Below are positions 3,804 through 41,020 of a stretch of 41,972 nt of DNA, one piece after another (within the stretch, counting starts at the first letter, position 1; each line of letters begins with the position of its first letter). Under the pieces are notes generated by a model. That model ran no database searches and was not told where the DNA came from. It was given only the letters and a program-made list of their open reading frames with translations. The DNA comes from a virus, in the IMG/VR virus record IMGVR_UViG_3300010160_000007, positions 1 to 41,972 of that record; one strand, written 5' to 3'. The translations under genes were made by a program, and so were the position numbers.

Positions 3804-5353
3804 TGAAATATTTTTCGGTATGTTCTGGAATAGAAGCTGCATCTGTAGCGTGGCACGATCTTGGGTGGACTCCATTGGGGTTTGCAGAGATCGAGCCATT
3901 TCCATCAGCCGTACTGAAAGAAAGATTTCCTAACACAAAAAACTATGGAGACATCACCCAATACAAATCGTGGGGAATCGAGCCAGGAACAATTAACGTT
4001 CTGGCAGGTGGGCCACCGTGCCAAGCATTTTCAGTCGCAGGTCTCAGAGAAGGAATGGCTGATCCACGTGGTAACCTGTCCCTTACCTATGTCGGAATGG
4101 TTGATCACTTTAAACCAAAGTGGATCATATACGAAAATGTGCCTGGACTCTTGTCAAGTAACGGAGGAAAAGATTTTTCAGCCCTCACAACTGCGTTGGC
4201 AAACATCGGGTATAGCTTCGCCTACAGAATTTTGGACGCTCAATTCTTCTCCGTGCCGCAACGGAGGCGGCGAATTTTCCTCGTTGGCAGCCGTACTGGA
4301 GACTGGAGATATCCCACCGCAGTATTATTTGACGGCCAAAGCGTGTTCGGGAATCCTACGCAGAAGCCAAAACAGAGGCAAAGTATTGCCCCCACTTCTG
4401 GAGCAAGCACTAAGGGCGAAAGCAGAATCAATTGCACCCCAGACGGAATCACAGGAACAGTAAGTGCTAAATGGAGTAAAGGTACAGGTGGGCCGGCAGG
4501 AGATGAGCATTATAATCTTATTACAGAATCACCTGTATCATATAGCATTCGTGAGGATGCAAAGGCAAATACGTTTAGTGTAACTGAAGATGATGTTGCG
4601 CTATGTGTAACTAAAGTACGTCCATCCCCACAATCGCATCACGCACAAAACTTTATTGTGCAACCTAATCAAGTAATGTTCCGTAAATCAAAACGTGCAT
4701 CATCTACTGACGATCACGAAACTTGGGTAGCAGACAATAAATCAAACACATTAAATAATTTTGATGTTGGTGATGTGCGTACTACCCACGCAGTTGTATA
4801 TGAGAACCATCCAAATGATTCCAGAGTTACAGGGCCGCACGATGTAGCACCCACAGTAACATCAAGGTACGGCACAGGTGGTGGTAATGTACCATTTGTT
4901 CAAGATACATCAGCAATTGCATTTCAACCTGGCAACCTTGCACGTAGAGCTGGCAGCGATCCAAGCACAGAAGTATTTCCTACATTGTCAAAAGATAGTG
5001 GAGATCAGAATCCTCACGTTGCACACATTCAAGCATTTGATGTTTATAACCAAAGCGTATCAAATACAAATCAGACATTAAGTTCATCTGCTACAGATGC
5101 TTGTCATACAGGGACAGTGTTTTCACCTACAATGGCGGTACGTAGATTAACACCCAATGAATGTTTAGCATTACAAGGATTCCCAAAAAATTGGACAAAG
5201 ATTTCTTGGAAAGGAAAACCACCAGAACAATGTCCCGATGGCCCACAATATAAAGCCGCAGGTAATAGTATGGCAGTACCTTGTATGCGCTGGATCGGGG
5301 AACGCATTATGTTGGTTGAACAAGTGATAGCCGAGGTACGAAACATTAAGTGA
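3803..5353 (+). CDS. dcm: DNA (cytosine-5) methyltransferase, orphan
   Basis: The 516-residue protein shows the ordered C5-methyltransferase motifs. These are motif I FSVCSGIEAAS (4-14), motif IV GGPPCQAFS with nucleophile Cys73, motif VI YENVPG (110-115), motif VIII QRRRR (153-157), motif IX RRLTPNE (447-453) and motif X GNSMAVP (487-493). It transfers a methyl group from SAM to cytosine in DNA. The target-recognition region (about 190-440) is unusually long. It carries repeated modules of the type 'APTVTSRYGTGGGNVPFV' and 'FPTLSKDSGDQNPHVAHI', a pattern seen in phage C5 methyltransferases. No restriction enzyme is nearby, so evasion of host restriction is the likely role. Confidence 0.95.
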   Translation: MKYFSVCSGIEAASVAWHDLGWTPLGFAEIEPFPSAVLKERFPNTKNYGDITQYKSWGIEPGTINVLAGGPPCQAFSVAGLREGMADPRGNLSLTYVGMVDHFKPKWIIYENVPGLLSSNGGKDFSALTTALANIGYSFAYRILDAQFFSVPQRRRRIFLVGSRTGDWRYPTAVLFDGQSVFGNPTQKPKQRQSIAPTSGASTKGESRINCTPDGITGTVSAKWSKGTGGPAGDEHYNLITESPVSYSIREDAKANTFSVTEDDVALCVTKVRPSPQSHHAQNFIVQPNQVMFRKSKRASSTDDHETWVADNKSNTLNNFDVGDVRTTHAVVYENHPNDSRVTGPHDVAPTVTSRYGTGGGNVPFVQDTSAIAFQPGNLARRAGSDPSTEVFPTLSKDSGDQNPHVAHIQAFDVYNQSVSNTNQTLSSSATDACHTGTVFSPTMAVRRLTPNECLALQGFPKNWTKISWKGKPPEQCPDGPQYKAAGNSMAVPCMRWIGERIMLVEQVIAEVRNIK

Positions 5354-5425
5354 GGTATGCCGAGGTATGACAAGGTATGCCGAGGTAGGGTAAAGATATG
5401 CTGGGTAGGCAGGTATGCCGAGGTA
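5353..5425 (+). repeat. GGTA-rich repeat array 1
   Basis: The 15-mer AGGTATGCCGAGGTA occurs three times (5353-5367, 5373-5387, 5411-5425), separated by related GGTA-containing sequence. A partial copy, GCCGAGGTA, is inside the methyltransferase 3' end (5330-5338). The array starts at the methyltransferase stop codon and marks the left edge of the AT-rich small-gene island. A similar GGTA array lies at 7754-7819. Confidence 0.85.
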
Positions 5426-5611
5426 GGTACAAATAACATATGTGATAGGGCCATCGTTTCCAAGCGCCTGGATGGGAAGATCACATACAATTATGATATC
5501 CTGGTTAGCTGCCTGGCGCTCCACCTGGATAACGATAGACATTCAGCTATCGAATGGATTCAAAAAAACGTCATTCCTTTAGATCGGAAATATGTGAATC
5601 TTTGCTATTGA
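5357..5611 (+). CDS. Hypothetical protein, 84 aa, start inside repeat array
   Basis: The first ~20 residues are encoded by the GGTA repeat array and look non-natural, whereas residues 30-84 (containing DRHSAIEWIQKNVIPLDRKY) have ordinary protein composition. No internal ATG offers a cleaner start. The gene may be a real small protein whose 5' end has been overrun by repeats, or a remnant. No family is recognised. Confidence 0.4.
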   Translation: MPRYDKVCRGRVKICWVGRYAEVGTNNICDRAIVSKRLDGKITYNYDILVSCLALHLDNDRHSAIEWIQKNVIPLDRKYVNLCY

Positions 5612-5660
5612 CGGAATTGACTAAATAGTTTTCTATGTGTGAATAATAAATTTCACTCAT

Positions 5661-5978
5661 ATGAATAGCACACAAAATGATCACCACGAATTCCCTTGTT
5701 ATTGTTGCGGCAAATTAACAAAAGGGAAAAAACTACAATATATTGTTACAACGGATGGATGTAATTTTATGTCTCATAATGAATGGATCGAATTCTGTAA
5801 CAAGAATGGATTTGATCACACAGATCCTATTTCCGCATTTGATATAGCTGGATGTGGATGGAGACCAGAATGGTTTGGATCTGTGTGCTATAAGAATTGG
5901 AAAAAGATTTATCCCATACACATAGAGATCAAAGATTCTAAAGGGGATCGTTATCTATTTATTACCGAACAAAAATAA
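5661..5978 (+). CDS. Hypothetical Cys-containing protein, 105 aa
   Basis: No family is recognised. It contains FPCYCCGKLTKGK (residues 11-23), a zinc-knuckle-like start with C13, C15 and C16. Further cysteines follow at about 34, 46, 65 and 76, and the protein is rich in Trp and aromatics. A small metal-binding protein is plausible. It is the first gene of the island, preceded by CACTCATATG, a variant of the common start box. It ends in EQK-stop like the next gene. Confidence 0.65.
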   Translation: MNSTQNDHHEFPCYCCGKLTKGKKLQYIVTTDGCNFMSHNEWIEFCNKNGFDHTDPISAFDIAGCGWRPEWFGSVCYKNWKKIYPIHIEIKDSKGDRYLFITEQK

Positions 5979-5987
5979 TTTACCCAC
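5965..5987 (+). repeat. Duplicated stop-to-linker junction, copy 1
   Basis: This 23-bp stretch beginning CCGAACAAAAATAATTT matches 6208-6230 at 22 of 23 positions. It spans the last codons (E-Q-K), the stop and the start of the linker to the next gene, so two consecutive genes have the same 3' junction. Confidence 0.85.
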
Positions 5988-5996
5988 CACACACAT

Positions 5997-6221
5997 ATGA
6001 AAACGATATTACAATTCAAACCATCATCAAATTATAACGTATTACTTTGGAAACCTGTTAATTCAGCTGCCGAAAAATTATTACCAAAAAAGAGAAAGGC
6101 ATTTAATAATGATGATCTAACAAAATTGTTCGGCGCTGATTATGAAATCCAAATTGATTTAGGTTTCTATTTAGGGGAATCTAATTTTGTTAAATGCGAA
6201 TCCATACCCGAACAAAAATAA
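5997..6221 (+). CDS. Hypothetical protein, 74 aa
   Basis: No family is recognised. It is a short alpha/beta-looking protein with Lys-rich middle (LLPKKRKAFNNDDLTKLFG, residues 28-46). It starts at ATG 5997 behind the full leader ACCCACCACACACATATG. Its C-terminus ESIPEQK resembles that of the preceding gene at DNA level. There is no Shine-Dalgarno sequence. Confidence 0.65.
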   Translation: MKTILQFKPSSNYNVLLWKPVNSAAEKLLPKKRKAFNNDDLTKLFGADYEIQIDLGFYLGESNFVKCESIPEQK

Positions 6222-6230
6222 TTTACTCAC
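6208..6230 (+). repeat. Duplicated stop-to-linker junction, copy 2
   Basis: Second copy of the 23-bp junction at 5965-5987, with one C-to-T difference. The following linker again runs through a C/A-only stretch into CACATATG at 6244. Confidence 0.85.
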
Positions 6231-6243
6231 ACCATACACACAT

Positions 6244-6774
6244 ATGAAAAATCCACATCACAAATCATTAGAAGGCATTACCGATCTATCGGAAAAGGCA
6301 TTAATCATTTCCTATAATATGGGAATAGACAAAGGCATTAATGCAGCTGAATGGGACATCCAATATGCATTTGGTGGGAGACAAACCAGCGCAAGGAATG
6401 GTTATTTAATCGCCAAAGAAATAGTAAAGGCATTGGACGATGGTGATCCATCATTTTGGGATCATAGAGAATTACCAAATCTATCTGGAGAATGGTGTGG
6501 TGGAATGATTCCACACACATTATTAGAAGACATTCTGTATGAATTGGACATTGATGATGAATCTCAAGACAAGGAATATATGACAGATCAATTGGATGAA
6601 TTTTGCACCGAATGGGAAAATGGTGTTAACGATGGATTTACTTGGCATATGGAAACCAGCGCAAAGGAATACATTAAAAGCTATGAAGAAAATTTAAGGG
6701 AATTAAACAATGAGAGAGTTAAACGTTATCCCGATTTACCAGAGGAAGACAGAGAGGAAGATGACAATTATTAA
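6244..6774 (+). CDS. Hypothetical acidic protein, 176 aa
   Basis: This is the largest island gene, with no recognised family. It has a mixed N-terminus with SARNGYLIAKEIVKAL (about 48-63). A very acidic C-terminal half follows (clusters DIDDESQDKE and LPEEDREEDDNY). I start it at the ATG 6244 behind CACACATATG rather than an in-frame upstream ATG at 6187, which would overlap the previous gene. Strong acidity is a feature of DNA-mimic and anti-restriction proteins, but no specific similarity is seen, so this remains speculation. Confidence 0.7.
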   Translation: MKNPHHKSLEGITDLSEKALIISYNMGIDKGINAAEWDIQYAFGGRQTSARNGYLIAKEIVKALDDGDPSFWDHRELPNLSGEWCGGMIPHTLLEDILYELDIDDESQDKEYMTDQLDEFCTEWENGVNDGFTWHMETSAKEYIKSYEENLRELNNERVKRYPDLPEEDREEDDNY

Positions 6775-6797
6775 TTCTAATTTTACCCACCACACAT

Positions 6798-6980
6798 ATG
6801 AAAACTAAACTAAAAAAATATATGGTTACACAAATAACCTACACCACAATGATCATAAAAGCTGAAGATGAACGTGCAGCGGAATTGGAAATGAAAGATC
6901 AAATGTCTCAAGGCACAGATCAATATCATAATGCCTTATCCGCCGCCGTTGATGAATATAATTCGGAGGAAATTAAATAA
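6798..6980 (+). CDS. Hypothetical small protein, 60 aa
   Basis: The protein (MKTKLKKYMVTQITYTTMII and acidic helix after it) has the look of a beta-hairpin followed by a helix, as in many small phage 'DUF'-type proteins with a VTxxxxxTxxIxAxDExxA pattern. No assigned function. The start box is ACCCACCACACATATG. The next gene follows one base after its stop. Confidence 0.6.
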   Translation: MKTKLKKYMVTQITYTTMIIKAEDERAAELEMKDQMSQGTDQYHNALSAAVDEYNSEEIK

Positions 6981-6981
6981 T

Positions 6982-7257
6982 ATGAAAAAACAAAATCAAT
7001 TGTTAGCTGCTATGGTGCATTGTGTAATGAAATACGCGCCGTACACAGAAATGGATGATATCAAAATCGCTGCCTACGTTTATTGTAATGATAACTACAA
7101 AGGGGAGTATTCCGATTATTATAAATTAATGTGTGAGATCGATTTAAGATATCATTGTACTGAAGATGAATTATTTGAATCATTCCCTAATGCATTACTT
7201 TCCTATGATATTTTATCCGTTCATTTTAATCTCACAGACAAATATGAAAACAAGTAA
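6982..7257 (+). CDS. Hypothetical protein, 91 aa
   Basis: No family is recognised; mainly helical with several Tyr and Asp and cysteines near residues 12, 35, 49 and 56. I use ATG 6982 (MKKQNQLLAA), one base after the previous stop, rather than the in-frame ATG at 6931 within the preceding gene. This gene lacks the CACATATG box and is instead closely coupled to its upstream neighbour. Confidence 0.6.
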   Translation: MKKQNQLLAAMVHCVMKYAPYTEMDDIKIAAYVYCNDNYKGEYSDYYKLMCEIDLRYHCTEDELFESFPNALLSYDILSVHFNLTDKYENK

Positions 7258-7498
7258 ACCTATAGTTAAACATTACGGATGGGGATCATATAGTAAACGA
7301 TTCACCATTCCACGTGGGCATAAAATCGTTTGCGCTGATAATTTACCACAGAATGAAATAGATCATTGTGGTAAAATCATCCCAATCGGGAAACGTTATT
7401 GGCTGCTCAACATCCCTAAATCCGAAAGGCATAATGAAGATCTAAAATCCTGGCACAGAAATTATGGGATCTTAATTTATGAATCCGATTTAATTTAA
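7244..7498 (+). CDS. Hypothetical protein, 84 aa
   Basis: No family is recognised. It is basic and aromatic, with KHYGWGSYSKRFTIPRGHKI at residues 9-28. The ATG at 7244 overlaps the end of the previous gene by 14 bp, so the two genes are translationally coupled. An upstream in-frame ATG at 7166 lies well inside the preceding gene and is unlikely. Confidence 0.6.
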   Translation: MKTSKPIVKHYGWGSYSKRFTIPRGHKIVCADNLPQNEIDHCGKIIPIGKRYWLLNIPKSERHNEDLKSWHRNYGILIYESDLI

Positions 7499-7514
7499 CC
7501 CACACCACACACAT

Positions 7515-7664
7515 ATGTTTTATAAATCACAAAAACAAAATGATGGCACATATAATATTTTACGTTCCACATTCGGATTAAATTGGGAAATTGTATTAAT
7601 TGGAATTCGTGGATGTAACGTAAACAGAATGATCAACAAATTATATTATAATGATAATTTATGA
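7515..7664 (+). CDS. Hypothetical small protein, 49 aa
   Basis: This short frame (MFYKSQKQNDGTYNILRS at the start, ending YYNDNL) sits directly behind the strongest copy of the leader, ACCCACACCACACACATATG. The leader and normal spacing argue that it is a real gene. Its stop overlaps the start of an 18-codon frame as ATGA. Function unknown. Confidence 0.55.
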   Translation: MFYKSQKQNDGTYNILRSTFGLNWEIVLIGIRGCNVNRMINKLYYNDNL

Positions 7665-7717
7665 TCTATTTTATATTATTCGTGCTAACCATTTTGTGGT
7701 TTGCATTTGAAAAATAA
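7661..7717 (+). CDS. Possible 18-aa single-span membrane peptide
   Basis: An 18-codon frame encodes MIYFILFVLTILWFAFEK, almost entirely a hydrophobic helix with a charged C-terminal end. It begins in an ATGA overlap with the stop of the 49-aa gene and ends 5 bp before a strong terminator. Coupling and position make translation credible, but a frame this short may arise by chance. Confidence 0.35.
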   Translation: MIYFILFVLTILWFAFEK

Positions 7718-7722
7718 TTAAT

Positions 7723-7745
7723 GGGGATTCACATCCCCTTTTTTA
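7723..7745 (+). terminator. Rho-independent terminator
   Basis: GGGGAT (7723-7728) and ATCCCC (7733-7738) form a 6-bp stem with a TCAC loop, followed by TTTTTTATTT. It closes the first half of the small-gene island. Confidence 0.8.
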
Positions 7746-7753
7746 TTTATGTG

Positions 7754-7819
7754 TACGTGGGTAGGTAGGTAGGTAGGTACGTGGGTAGGTAGGTAGGTAG
7801 GTAGGTATGCACGTGCATA
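7754..7819 (+). repeat. GGTA tandem array 2 ending in a 14-bp palindrome
   Basis: Two blocks begin TACGTGG and continue as (GTAG)n: 7754-7777 and 7778-7805, the second one tetranucleotide longer. The array ends in the perfect palindrome TATGCACGTGCATA (7806-7819). The 290-bp gene-free stretch 7718-8007 also holds a terminator at 7723-7745 and four AGCTG-containing repeats between 7823 and about 7895. A TAAATAGTTAACTAA element precedes the next gene. No tRNA or reading frame is seen. Confidence 0.85.
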
Positions 7820-8007
7820 TGTTAAGCTGCTATAAGCTGTGGCTGCACAAAGCTGTGATCCAAAATTTTAAAAATAAAAATCCTGGCGCACCAGCTGCGG
7901 CTAAAAAAATTGTGCAAAAAACCTGGCACCATTTACCCCTAAAAATTGATCTTGTAACGTGGTAAATAGTTAACTAATCTAATGGACGTACCAAATACAC
8001 CACACAT

Positions 8008-8427
8008 ATGAAATACAAACCTACAGACATTAAACTATTAACAATGATTGATCGGGTAAAATATTACCTGCAAAAAAATCACAATTATAATTCCGTTTCC
8101 GTTTTTATGGATTCAATTGATAATTGTTCAAACGATGATGACGTGAAATATATTATTATTGAAACTACGATGACATTATTTGGACAAGATGTTTTAGGGG
8201 ATGATTATAATTCCCCCGACAGATTAATTCCTTCCATTGATGAATTAGATTTAGAATATCAAAAATGCATTGATGAAAATTGGGAAGATCGATTGATGAC
8301 TCTCTACGTTTTAGAAATGCATTCCAATGACACAAACGAAACAATGTATAATTATTTCGTTGGTGCCTTCCCATTCATTATGATGAATGACAAATCCAAA
8401 TTTTCATCCATTAGCGATTCGGAATAA
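8008..8427 (+). CDS. Hypothetical acidic protein, 139 aa
   Basis: No family is recognised. It is helical, acidic and Asp/Asn-rich, without cysteine clusters or membrane segments. It is the first gene after the second GGTA array, behind the start box ACACCACACATATG. A TAAATAGTTAAC stretch about 40 bp upstream may belong to a promoter. Confidence 0.65.
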   Translation: MKYKPTDIKLLTMIDRVKYYLQKNHNYNSVSVFMDSIDNCSNDDDVKYIIIETTMTLFGQDVLGDDYNSPDRLIPSIDELDLEYQKCIDENWEDRLMTLYVLEMHSNDTNETMYNYFVGAFPFIMMNDKSKFSSISDSE

Positions 8428-8429
8428 TT

Positions 8430-8449
8430 TTTTTTAGGATCACAAAAAT
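8430..8449 (+). repeat. 20-bp dispersed repeat, copy 1
   Basis: TTTTTTAGGATCACAAAAAT precedes the gene at 8463. It recurs at 9605-9624 with one difference, where no gene follows. Confidence 0.75.
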
Positions 8450-8462
8450 TTCCCTCACACAT

Positions 8463-8759
8463 ATGAACACCAAAAAACCACAAACCATAAAACGTAAACA
8501 GACCTATGTAATCGCCAAAGAAATTTGCGAATTACTAAAAACAGATTCCGCAAACGGATATGACCCTCACGCTATCGGAACAGAGATTGGAAAATTTCTA
8601 ATTAAGAAATTTGAAAATGAGGAATTCAATTTCGGTTATGACCCAAACCTTGCCAGCGAATGCGTTCAAATTATTTTAAGGGTCGCATTGGACAAAATTG
8701 AAAACCATTCCCCTTCAAATATTTTGCCACCATTGAATCCCGAAAATAGAAAAAAATAA
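8463..8759 (+). CDS. Hypothetical protein, 98 aa
   Basis: No family is recognised. It has a basic N-terminus (KKPQTIKRKQTYVIAKEICE) and helical middle, and a proline-containing basic tail. The 'xxYxIAKEI' phrase is also found in the 176-aa island protein (GYLIAKEIVKAL), hinting at distant kinship or a shared motif. It begins behind CTCACACATATG. Confidence 0.62.
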   Translation: MNTKKPQTIKRKQTYVIAKEICELLKTDSANGYDPHAIGTEIGKFLIKKFENEEFNFGYDPNLASECVQIILRVALDKIENHSPSNILPPLNPENRKK

Positions 8760-8809
8760 GATCAAATTTCAGCGCACACATCACAGAAAAAAATTTCCAC
8801 ACCACACAT

Positions 8810-9040
8810 ATGAAAAAAATAACAGACCAACAAATCCAAGAGATTACAGAAAATCTCTTAAACGAAATCGTGATCAAAATTCAAGAGACCCAAGACCCGA
8901 AAGGGGAATATGCATTGGGAGATATATGGGGTCTCTATTGTTCCCACGATTGGGACGAATTAATCGCCCACGTTTCCGAATATATGATCACAAAAAAATC
9001 CGAAATAGATTTATCCTATTTCAAAAATCCAAGATCCTAA
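8810..9040 (+). CDS. Hypothetical protein, 76 aa
   Basis: No family is recognised. The N-terminal half is an amphipathic helix (DQQIQEITENLLNEIVIKIQ). The rest is aromatic and charged, with LYCSHDWDELIAHV near residues 43-56. The start box is CACACCACACATATG. There is a 50-bp gap before it that contains no other frame. Confidence 0.62.
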   Translation: MKKITDQQIQEITENLLNEIVIKIQETQDPKGEYALGDIWGLYCSHDWDELIAHVSEYMITKKSEIDLSYFKNPRS

Positions 9041-9069
9041 ATTTTTTTCCACCATTTCGCCGCACACAT

Positions 9070-9165
9070 ATGAAAACAAAAATAATATTAGAATCGTTGG
9101 CAATTACTTGCCTCATTATTTCCCTCTCTCTTTTCTTAAGGGTCATTAAGGCATTCATTTCTTAA
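9070..9165 (+). CDS. Single-span membrane peptide, 31 aa
   Basis: The frame begins MKTKIILESLAIT and continues as a hydrophobic helix ending RVIKAFIS, giving one transmembrane span with a positively charged N-terminus. It stands behind the start box CGCACACATATG, which strongly favours translation. Candidate roles are membrane perturbation, superinfection exclusion or a lysis accessory; none can be chosen from sequence. Confidence 0.5.
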   Translation: MKTKIILESLAITCLIISLSLFLRVIKAFIS

Positions 9166-9198
9166 CCCACACAATAAACCACATAATAATAAAAACCT

Positions 9199-9516
9199 AT
9201 GATCATAGAAATAAACATCCACCAATTCAAAAAATGGATAAATGAATCAGACGATTACAAAAAATGGTCAGATGAATCGTTAGACATTCTTTGGGAATGG
9301 TATGAGGAACAAGAGGCGGAAAATGGCACACCAATGAAATTTGATTTTGTCCTAATCAGATCTTGTTGGGCGGAATATGATTCCATCAAGGAATTACGTG
9401 ATGACTACGAACAATGCGTTGAAACCACCGATGAGGAATTCTTACAATGGATGGAAGACCACACCACCATTTTCAAATTATCATTTGGCAGGTTTTTAAT
9501 TTGGTCAGACTTCTAA
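9199..9516 (+). CDS. Hypothetical acidic protein, 105 aa
   Basis: No family is recognised. The protein is rich in Trp and acidic residues (KKWSDESLDILWEWYEEQEA at about 20-39; WMEDHTTIFKL near 89-99). Its high negative charge and aromatic content resemble small phage inhibitors, but this is not specific. It is the last island gene, followed by a terminator at 9542. Its upstream sequence keeps ACCCACACA but lacks the final CACATATG. Confidence 0.65.
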   Translation: MIIEINIHQFKKWINESDDYKKWSDESLDILWEWYEEQEAENGTPMKFDFVLIRSCWAEYDSIKELRDDYEQCVETTDEEFLQWMEDHTTIFKLSFGRFLIWSDF

Positions 9517-9541
9517 AATAGTTAACAGATCAAACCTTAAG

Positions 9542-9570
9542 GGAATCATTTAAACGTGATTCCTTTTTTT
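9542..9570 (+). terminator. Rho-independent terminator at end of small-gene island
   Basis: GGAATCA (9542-9548) and TGATTCC (9557-9563) form a 7-bp stem with an 8-base loop, followed by seven T residues. Confidence 0.8.
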
Positions 9571-9604
9571 GTGCCTATTCATTTGGAATCATTGGATGGG
9601 ATTA

Positions 9605-39865: not shown

Positions 39866-40705
39866 TTAGAATGGGACATCGTCCATTGCTTCTGGTTCTT
39901 CAAATGCTGGCACTTCAAATGCTGGTGCTGGCTTTGATGTGGCAGGGCCGGCAGATTGATCCAGAGCATCACGGAATGCTTTGTCCTTGTCGCTAATCTT
40001 TCCTTTGAATGGTTTGGGTTGGTAGTTATCTCTCCACCATTTAAGTGAAGCTGCAGGAAGACTTCCAAGTGCCATACCTTTTTGCTTACCGAATGGAATA
40101 ATAACTGTTCGCCAAGTTCCATCTGACTCAACAACAGGCAATGCTTTTACAGGAGCAATGGCAGGAATAGTTGGAAGGTCATCAATGAAATTTGCCGACT
40201 CTGCTTTAACCATACTTAACGTATTGGCATCGATGCCTGGTGGATTCCAGCGGAAGCGTGTACCTGTCTTGGTCTTGCCATCGTACTTGCCCTTTGGATC
40301 AATGATAGCCCAAGTCTCTGGCAGGTCATACAAGTAACGACCCACTCCTAAATTAACCACGGCACGTTTCATAGCCCCAGATGCAGCCGACTTAAAAGGG
40401 TCGATGTCACCATTGGATTCTACTGCACAAGTACCAGTAACAGATCGTGCTTGGATACCAGGCGCTTCGTGGATGTTAATCTCCACAACGCATACTGCTT
40501 TGTCACCAATTTGTTGGAAGGTTTCGTGGGATGACCATCCATCCTCAAAGACTTCATCGAGTCGTTCCTGCGCGGCACGATTGTCGATGTAGCAAAGGCA
40601 TTTCGCCCAGATGCTACCATCTTGTTTTTCACCGCAGGATTGTAATCGCCACTCGATGCGGTCTGGAGTGAATGGCTTACGGAGTATGTTTAGTATTTCT
40701 TTCAT
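39866..40705 (-). CDS. Rad52-family single-strand annealing protein with SSB-like acidic tip
   Basis: The 279-residue protein has the Rad52/Rad22 annealing core (about 14-135): IEWRLQSCGEKQDGSIWAKC, ERLDEVFEDGW, SGAMKRAVVNLGVGRYLY and a following DLPETW. Residues about 205-225 (PFGKQKGMALGSLPAASLKW) resemble the DUF3820 'FGKxKG' motif. The C-terminus EEPEAMDDVPF looks like the acidic hook of bacterial SSB. With the RecE-like nuclease it would form the phage recombination system. The start box is ACATATG. Confidence 0.85.
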   Translation of the reverse strand: MKEILNILRKPFTPDRIEWRLQSCGEKQDGSIWAKCLCYIDNRAAQERLDEVFEDGWSSHETFQQIGDKAVCVVEINIHEAPGIQARSVTGTCAVESNGDIDPFKSAASGAMKRAVVNLGVGRYLYDLPETWAIIDPKGKYDGKTKTGTRFRWNPPGIDANTLSMVKAESANFIDDLPTIPAIAPVKALPVVESDGTWRTVIIPFGKQKGMALGSLPAASLKWWRDNYQPKPFKGKISDKDKAFRDALDQSAGPATSKPAPAFEVPAFEEPEAMDDVPF

Positions 40706-40726
40706 ATGTATTTGTTTGGGTGGAAA

Positions 40727-41020
40727 TTAGTCGATGTCGAAATTGTTCTCTGGGAAGTTACCAGACTTCATATAGGACTGCCAAGTATCAAATGATGCTT
40801 CGTGGTTTCTCCAAGCTGCATTGAATGCTTCAAGGGTTTCTGGATCAAGGTCACGACCATTATTAGCGTGGAAGTATCTGAGTGAATGGAATAATTTGTT
40901 TAACTTATCTTGCAAATATAAAATGTTGTCCTGTTGCACGTGAAGTTTTGCTTCAACGTTATCTGCTTCAGCAGCGGTAAGTCTTAACAAGGAATGAAGA
41001 TTGGAAATTTTGTCGCTCAT
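40727..41020 (-). CDS. Hypothetical helical protein, 97 aa
   Basis: Residues 1-50 form coiled-coil-like helices (LLRLTAAEADNVEAKLHVQQ; ILYLQDKLNKLFHSLRY), followed by a Trp-containing acidic end. It lies between the transglycosylase and annealing-protein genes. No family is recognised. Confidence 0.6.
   Translation of the reverse strand: MSDKISNLHSLLRLTAAEADNVEAKLHVQQDNILYLQDKLNKLFHSLRYFHANNGRDLDPETLEAFNAAWRNHEASFDTWQSYMKSGNFPENNFDID

Follow-up and report, generated by a model that had tools for sequence, protein, structure and literature searches.

The window, as we call the whole stretch of DNA analysed here, comprises 41,972 bases and is an IMG/VR virus record from an uncultured phage. 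Tailed-phage genes for a terminase, a C5-cytosine methylase, RusA and a Rad52/22-family annealing protein (PF04098) are present. The window gave no match in Rfam or tRNA scans, no DNA-level relative was found among named phages, and phage C75C1 is the only full-length protein relative (30% identity in the terminase, 27% in the portal).

An island of 12 genes is arranged on the plus strand in two runs, 5661-7664 and 8008-9516. Intrinsic-terminator-like hairpins followed by a T run close the first run (7723..7748) and the second (9539..9573), both on the plus strand. The region holds five terminator-like hairpins against 3.9 in shuffles, which is not above chance, so that any argument from them rests on their position. 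Searches of the island proteins against PHROGs and Pfam gave no convincing match except PHROG 9974 for the product of gene 9199, and none of the proteins has a recognisable function. Most are without a homologue in the related loci described below, and the island genes vary between relatives. For protein 6244, a separate scan for relatives found none, and tblastn against the terminase-related loci gave six at ~35% identity.

Several repeats accompany the island. An array of GGTA repeats (GTAGGTAGGTAGG...) at 7750-7813 separates the first terminator from the second run, and degenerate GAGGTATGCC/GGTAGG repeats at 5353-5430 overlap the start of the ORF 5357-5611, just 3' of the methylase gene. 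The element AAATAGTTAAC is found at 7964-7982, upstream of gene 8008, and again at 9516-9534, at the end of the second run. A similar ATAGTTAACACCATT precedes a gene in two relatives (L019 near 7280, L023 near 7292); these elements are possibly a promoter or a regulator site.

The exact box CACATATG spans the starts of eight island genes (5997, 6244, 6798, 7515, 8008, 8463, 8810 and 9070), each of which opens an ORF, and a ninth start, 5661, lies within CTCATATG; both observations of an earlier note on this DNA are thereby reproduced. The box occurs 11 times in the window, compared with a mean of 1.9 in shuffled sequence, and none of 100 shuffles reached 11. ACA, the motif that marks CA-rich translation enhancers, is present in all eight boxes. 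As the same note had stated, no Shine-Dalgarno (SD) sequence precedes the nine starts (GGAG, GAGG or AGGA in 0/9 at -18..-5), and the annealing-protein gene, which starts at 40705 on the minus strand, begins in AAACAAATACATATG. Its further statement that most boxes follow a run of only A and C holds in part: the run is uninterrupted for at least 10 nt at five of the eight boxes, and is shorter or interrupted at 6244, 8463 and 9070, the last of which has a G at -8.

The leaders fill the short gaps between genes. In the first run, a G-free leader ending in CTCAT before the ATG (5642..5660) precedes gene 5661-5978. Directly 3' of the stop codon of this gene lies TTTACCCACCACACACAT (5979..5996), the leader of gene 5997-6221, which is followed by TTTACTCACACCATACACACAT (6222..6243) before gene 6244-6774, TTCTAATTTTACCCACCACACAT (6775..6797) before gene 6798-6980 and CCCACACCACACACAT (7499..7514) before gene 7515-7664. 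The second run is opened by gene 8008-8427 behind the G-free leader TACCAAATACACCACACAT (7989..8007). Further G-free leaders end in CCCTCACACAT (8439..8462) before gene 8463-8759 and in TTTCCACACCACACAT (8787..8809) before gene 8810-9040, and an intergenic leader that contains G ends in CGCACACAT (9041..9069) before gene 9070-9165. Gene 9199-9516 is box-less, with a G-free, A/C-rich leader (9166..9198) and a 47-nt G-free run. All of these lie on the plus strand; on the minus strand, the G-free leader of the annealing-protein gene (39866-40705) spans 40706..40731 and ends in TAATTTCCACCCAAACAAATACAT.

G makes up 2% of positions -16..-1 of the box genes, 12% of those of other genes and 21% of the whole window. 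A G-free run of at least 12 nt precedes the ATG of 10 of the 12 island genes, compared with 7% of random positions. Genes 6982 and 7244 have no box, and 6982 is the only island gene with an SD motif. The late phage genes mostly have A/T-rich leaders, and the A/C form is therefore dispensable for some genes.

The start regions of the box genes are predicted to be weakly folded. Their mean unpaired probability over -20..+6 is 0.77, compared with 0.58 for other window genes (p = 2e-4) and 0.46 for random ATGs (p = 2e-6); shuffled box regions still score 0.69, so that much of the low predicted folding follows from composition. SD-like motifs are not enriched across the phage family (0.08-0.11, against 0.06-0.09 in shuffles).

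A terminase search yielded 70 related viral loci, nearly all at 62-90% identity. Small genes of these relatives begin behind A/C-only tracts of up to 40 nt that abut the ATG, and the tract unit varies by phage: CCCCCCACACACAT in L010, CAACCCACCACCCAC in L046 and L050, AAAACCCAAAAACCAAAAAAAC in L073, and CCAAACCAAACCAA in L037 and L039. Related phage DNA totalling 880 kb holds 34 A/C-only tracts of at least 20 nt, and 21 of them end at the ATG start of an ORF that is 40 or more codons long, as do 0/34 G/T tracts (the same tracts on the other strand) and 0/15 A/G tracts; at 25 nt or more the figures are 14/16 for A/C and 0/16 for the other strand, all these counts being partly non-independent because some loci come from near-identical contigs. 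After removal of redundancy, 74 leaders from 35 contigs were left. A occupies -6, the sole fixed position, in 85% of them, compared with ~35% at neighbouring positions, and is not favoured at -3 (A 51%, C 49%).

The orthologues of the Rad52-type gene allow one leader to be followed across the relatives. Its G content is 3.7%, against 26.6% in the coding part, with A at -6 in 96% and C at -3 in 70%. Ungapped identity between these leaders is 0.42, where 0.35 is expected from composition; the composition is kept and the sequence has changed. Together with the variety of tracts, this indicates that what is conserved is a lack of G, frequently also of T, plus the A at -6. The exact box is a dialect of the window phage alone, and what ~70 related contigs conserve is its composition. 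Recurrence of the box in related phages, a point raised in the earlier note, is found at starts at the level of A/C composition and not of the exact sequence. As a widespread motif the exact box was rejected: CCACACCACACATATGAAA occurs in one contig only, a relative, and occurrences of TTTACCCACCACACA elsewhere are attributed to chance, with 1/46 sites preceding an ORF start.

Two relatives of the terminase were found on genome contigs of GTDB species, both from Verrucomicrobiota: a MAG contig of chromosomal appearance (L079) carries a truncated copy (52% identity), and an Opitutae MAG (L080) one at 33%. The truncated copy lies at 1332-1919 of its contig, with an integrase-like gene, judged by eye, on the other strand, and the region is apparently a prophage remnant. 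A profile search found terminase relatives in 12/388 Verrucomicrobiota genomes; because it covered this phylum only, phylum specificity rests on the GTDB-species matches. Some relatives carry TTGAC/TAGACT promoters, which we take to be unlike those of Bacteroidota. We infer an SD-poor host from the Verrucomicrobiota, at phylum level only, an assignment weakened by the G+C content of the candidate hosts (0.60-0.68), which is much higher than that of the phage (~0.41). In the G147 prophage region (L154-L155), on a Verrucomicrobiota chromosome, a distant terminase relative has some A/C leaders nearby, for example ACACCCAACCACACACCAAC before an ATG.

The motif search at host ribosomal-protein genes proposed in the earlier note turned up G-poor, A/C-rich, SD-free rplQ leaders in the candidate host family. 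This is the family of the first MAG (L079), where these leaders contain 6% G, an SD in 1/28 and an A/C tract of at least 9 nt in 10/28; in a sample across the phylum, the values are 24%, 19/26 and 0/26. Other ribosomal genes with A/C leaders in this family are probably rpsC, rplO and rpsM, as judged by their N-termini. Across the rplQ loci L229-L258, one Verrucomicrobiota family is A/C-rich and SD-free and the other families mostly have an SD, a contrast that suggests a lineage-level switch of initiation mode. Random chromosome samples of the candidate hosts lacked A/C tracts and showed SD enrichment that was slight or absent. On these samples a general presence of A/C tracts in the hosts was rejected; the enrichment is confined to ribosomal-protein genes of one family. 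The 3' end of 16S rRNA was not found in the candidate host genomes by family or by pattern. Judged from these genomes, the A/C leader appears to be customary in the hosts at certain highly expressed genes, a usage which the phages would have intensified.

We consider it probable, at roughly 75%, that the boxes are the ends of a G-poor A/C leader that replaces the SD in translation initiation. A/C-rich, nearly G-free RNA directly before the AUG, with A at -6, would stand in for the SD. Because A does not pair with C, such RNA is expected to leave the start region unpaired and accessible to the 30S subunit. The leader would serve two uses, as a 5' UTR behind a promoter in one clade of relatives, and as an intercistronic ribosome entry site after a stop codon in the window and in other relatives. 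Composition, the lock to the ATG, recurrence, lack of SD, promoter independence and low predicted folding are all computed properties of the leaders. Ribosome loading at the leader, raised translation and the importance of A-6 are what we infer. The unstructured ribosome-loading site envisaged by the earlier note is supported by the recurrence in relatives, the conservation of composition rather than sequence, the position at the ATG, the low predicted folding and the presence of such leaders at ribosomal-protein genes in the candidate host family.

Non-homologous genes have more similar leaders within a contig (identity 0.67) than between contigs (0.49), a difference reached in 0/2000 label permutations. 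This likeness goes beyond composition, so unfoldedness alone is an insufficient explanation. Either the gain of genes within a phage lineage has multiplied the leaders, or they are read by some factor. The latter would fit leaders that are a binding site for a phage or host protein or small RNA which switches the early genes together, with coevolution of site and binder giving rise to the dialects, and in enteric bacteria CA-rich leaders act as enhancers and are also targeted by the small RNA GcvB (PMC3879156). Against this, the units differ widely across the family, there is no known binder, and host rplQ genes have leaders of the same composition; we regard such a site as an unlikely main explanation, although it is compatible with an SD-replacing leader rather than exclusive of it.

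The box might instead belong to a promoter unit that recurs gene by gene, the alternative offered in the earlier note. In one clade (L043, L044, L046, L048 and L050), 12 of the 13 A/C-leader genes do have a promoter of the TTGAC-N17/18-TAGACT type (0.06 expected from shuffles). Its -10 element ends 23-53 nt before the ATG, which makes the A/C tract the predicted 5' UTR (~16-46 nt); the tract begins about 7 nt or more downstream of the -10, hence in the RNA. The box coincides with neither the -10 nor the -35 of sigma-70, and the tract offers no T for a -10. In the other clades, including the window, such a promoter is found at 1/38 leaders (0.36 in shuffles), and the internal boxes of the window lie in 16-50-nt gaps 3' of the previous stop codon, inside the two terminator-bounded runs. 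The tract is locked to the ATG and not to a promoter, and a repeated promoter unit finds no support in the window; we judge it improbable. The leader occurs both with and without a promoter of its own, which points to a role in the RNA, and its place within operons, right after a stop codon and free of a promoter, points to an RNA element. The A/C tract is most likely such an element for SD-independent translation, not a promoter.

It is very improbable that the boxes are recombination linkers, at which the Rad52-type annealing protein would shuffle small-gene cassettes by short identity at their borders. The phage encodes such a protein, the island genes differ between relatives, and the boxes do give unrelated genes near-identical stretches of 15-23 nt at their borders. 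Such linkers would not account, however, for the lack of G and T, for A at -6 or for the host rplQ leaders, and the Rad52-gene orthologues hold composition while sequence shifts, the opposite of what homology-based exchange needs; recombination linkage may be a by-product. A neutral origin by CA-microsatellite slippage or mutational bias can be dismissed, because most tracts are not simple repeats, even if some are plain (CA)n, and the strict strand and ATG position (21/34 against 0/34) already contradicts it.

The leader replacing the SD has partial counterparts in known systems. In initiation of the Bacteroidota type, the anti-SD is sequestered by bS21, bS18 and bS6 in the ribosome. Flavobacterium johnsoniae of this phylum uses SD-independent, Kozak-like starts with A at -3 and -6 (PMC6847099). 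The phage leaders share with it the lack of SD, little structure around the start and the preference for A at -6 (PMC6847099). Unlike those of F. johnsoniae, they are also C-rich, nearly without G and often without T over 12-40 nt, and do not favour A at -3; moreover, the relatives here have TTGAC/TAGACT promoters and an inferred host in the Verrucomicrobiota. ACA- and CA-rich translation enhancers act at yifK, dppA and gltI of enteric bacteria (Salmonella), and an ACAA repeat cited in the same work is functional without an SD (PMC3879156). These likewise consist of a CA-rich, position-tolerant stretch upstream of the start (PMC3879156). At yifK and dppA the enhancer is located beside an SD or upstream of it, whereas the phage tract abuts the AUG without one and is common to many genes of one phage. 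For Verrucomicrobia, the same phylum as the inferred host, PMC10783764 describes the SD as rarely used (Akkermansia, IMCC26134), and its passages on this contain no description of the A/C-only leader which we find in one family at ribosomal genes, rplQ among them. We rate the phage leader as a variant form of SD-independent initiation, with the A-6 of Flavobacterium and the ACA content of the enteric enhancers. The omega leader of TMV, a (CAA)n plant-virus sequence, is also unstructured, G-free and A/C-rich and is thought to aid translation; the likeness is in composition, the difference in being a single long leader of a eukaryotic virus with other initiation machinery.

A wider proposal is possible, though we hold it with less than even confidence. 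A Verrucomicrobiota lineage and its phages may use a ribosome-loading signal set by composition (A/C only, A-6) and not by pairing with 16S rRNA, which the phages would intensify at early genes, with a dialect fixed in each phage; a ribosomal or phage factor may be what reads it.

How bacteria that lack Shine-Dalgarno sequences select a start codon is not settled, and most work on it has been in Bacteroidota. In the present case one solution is found at many genes of many phages, with differing sequences, the same composition and two transcription settings, and the ribosomal-protein genes of a candidate host family echo the leader. The leaders form a natural variant set for testing composition, folding and position -6, and a practical basis for the design of G-free leaders.
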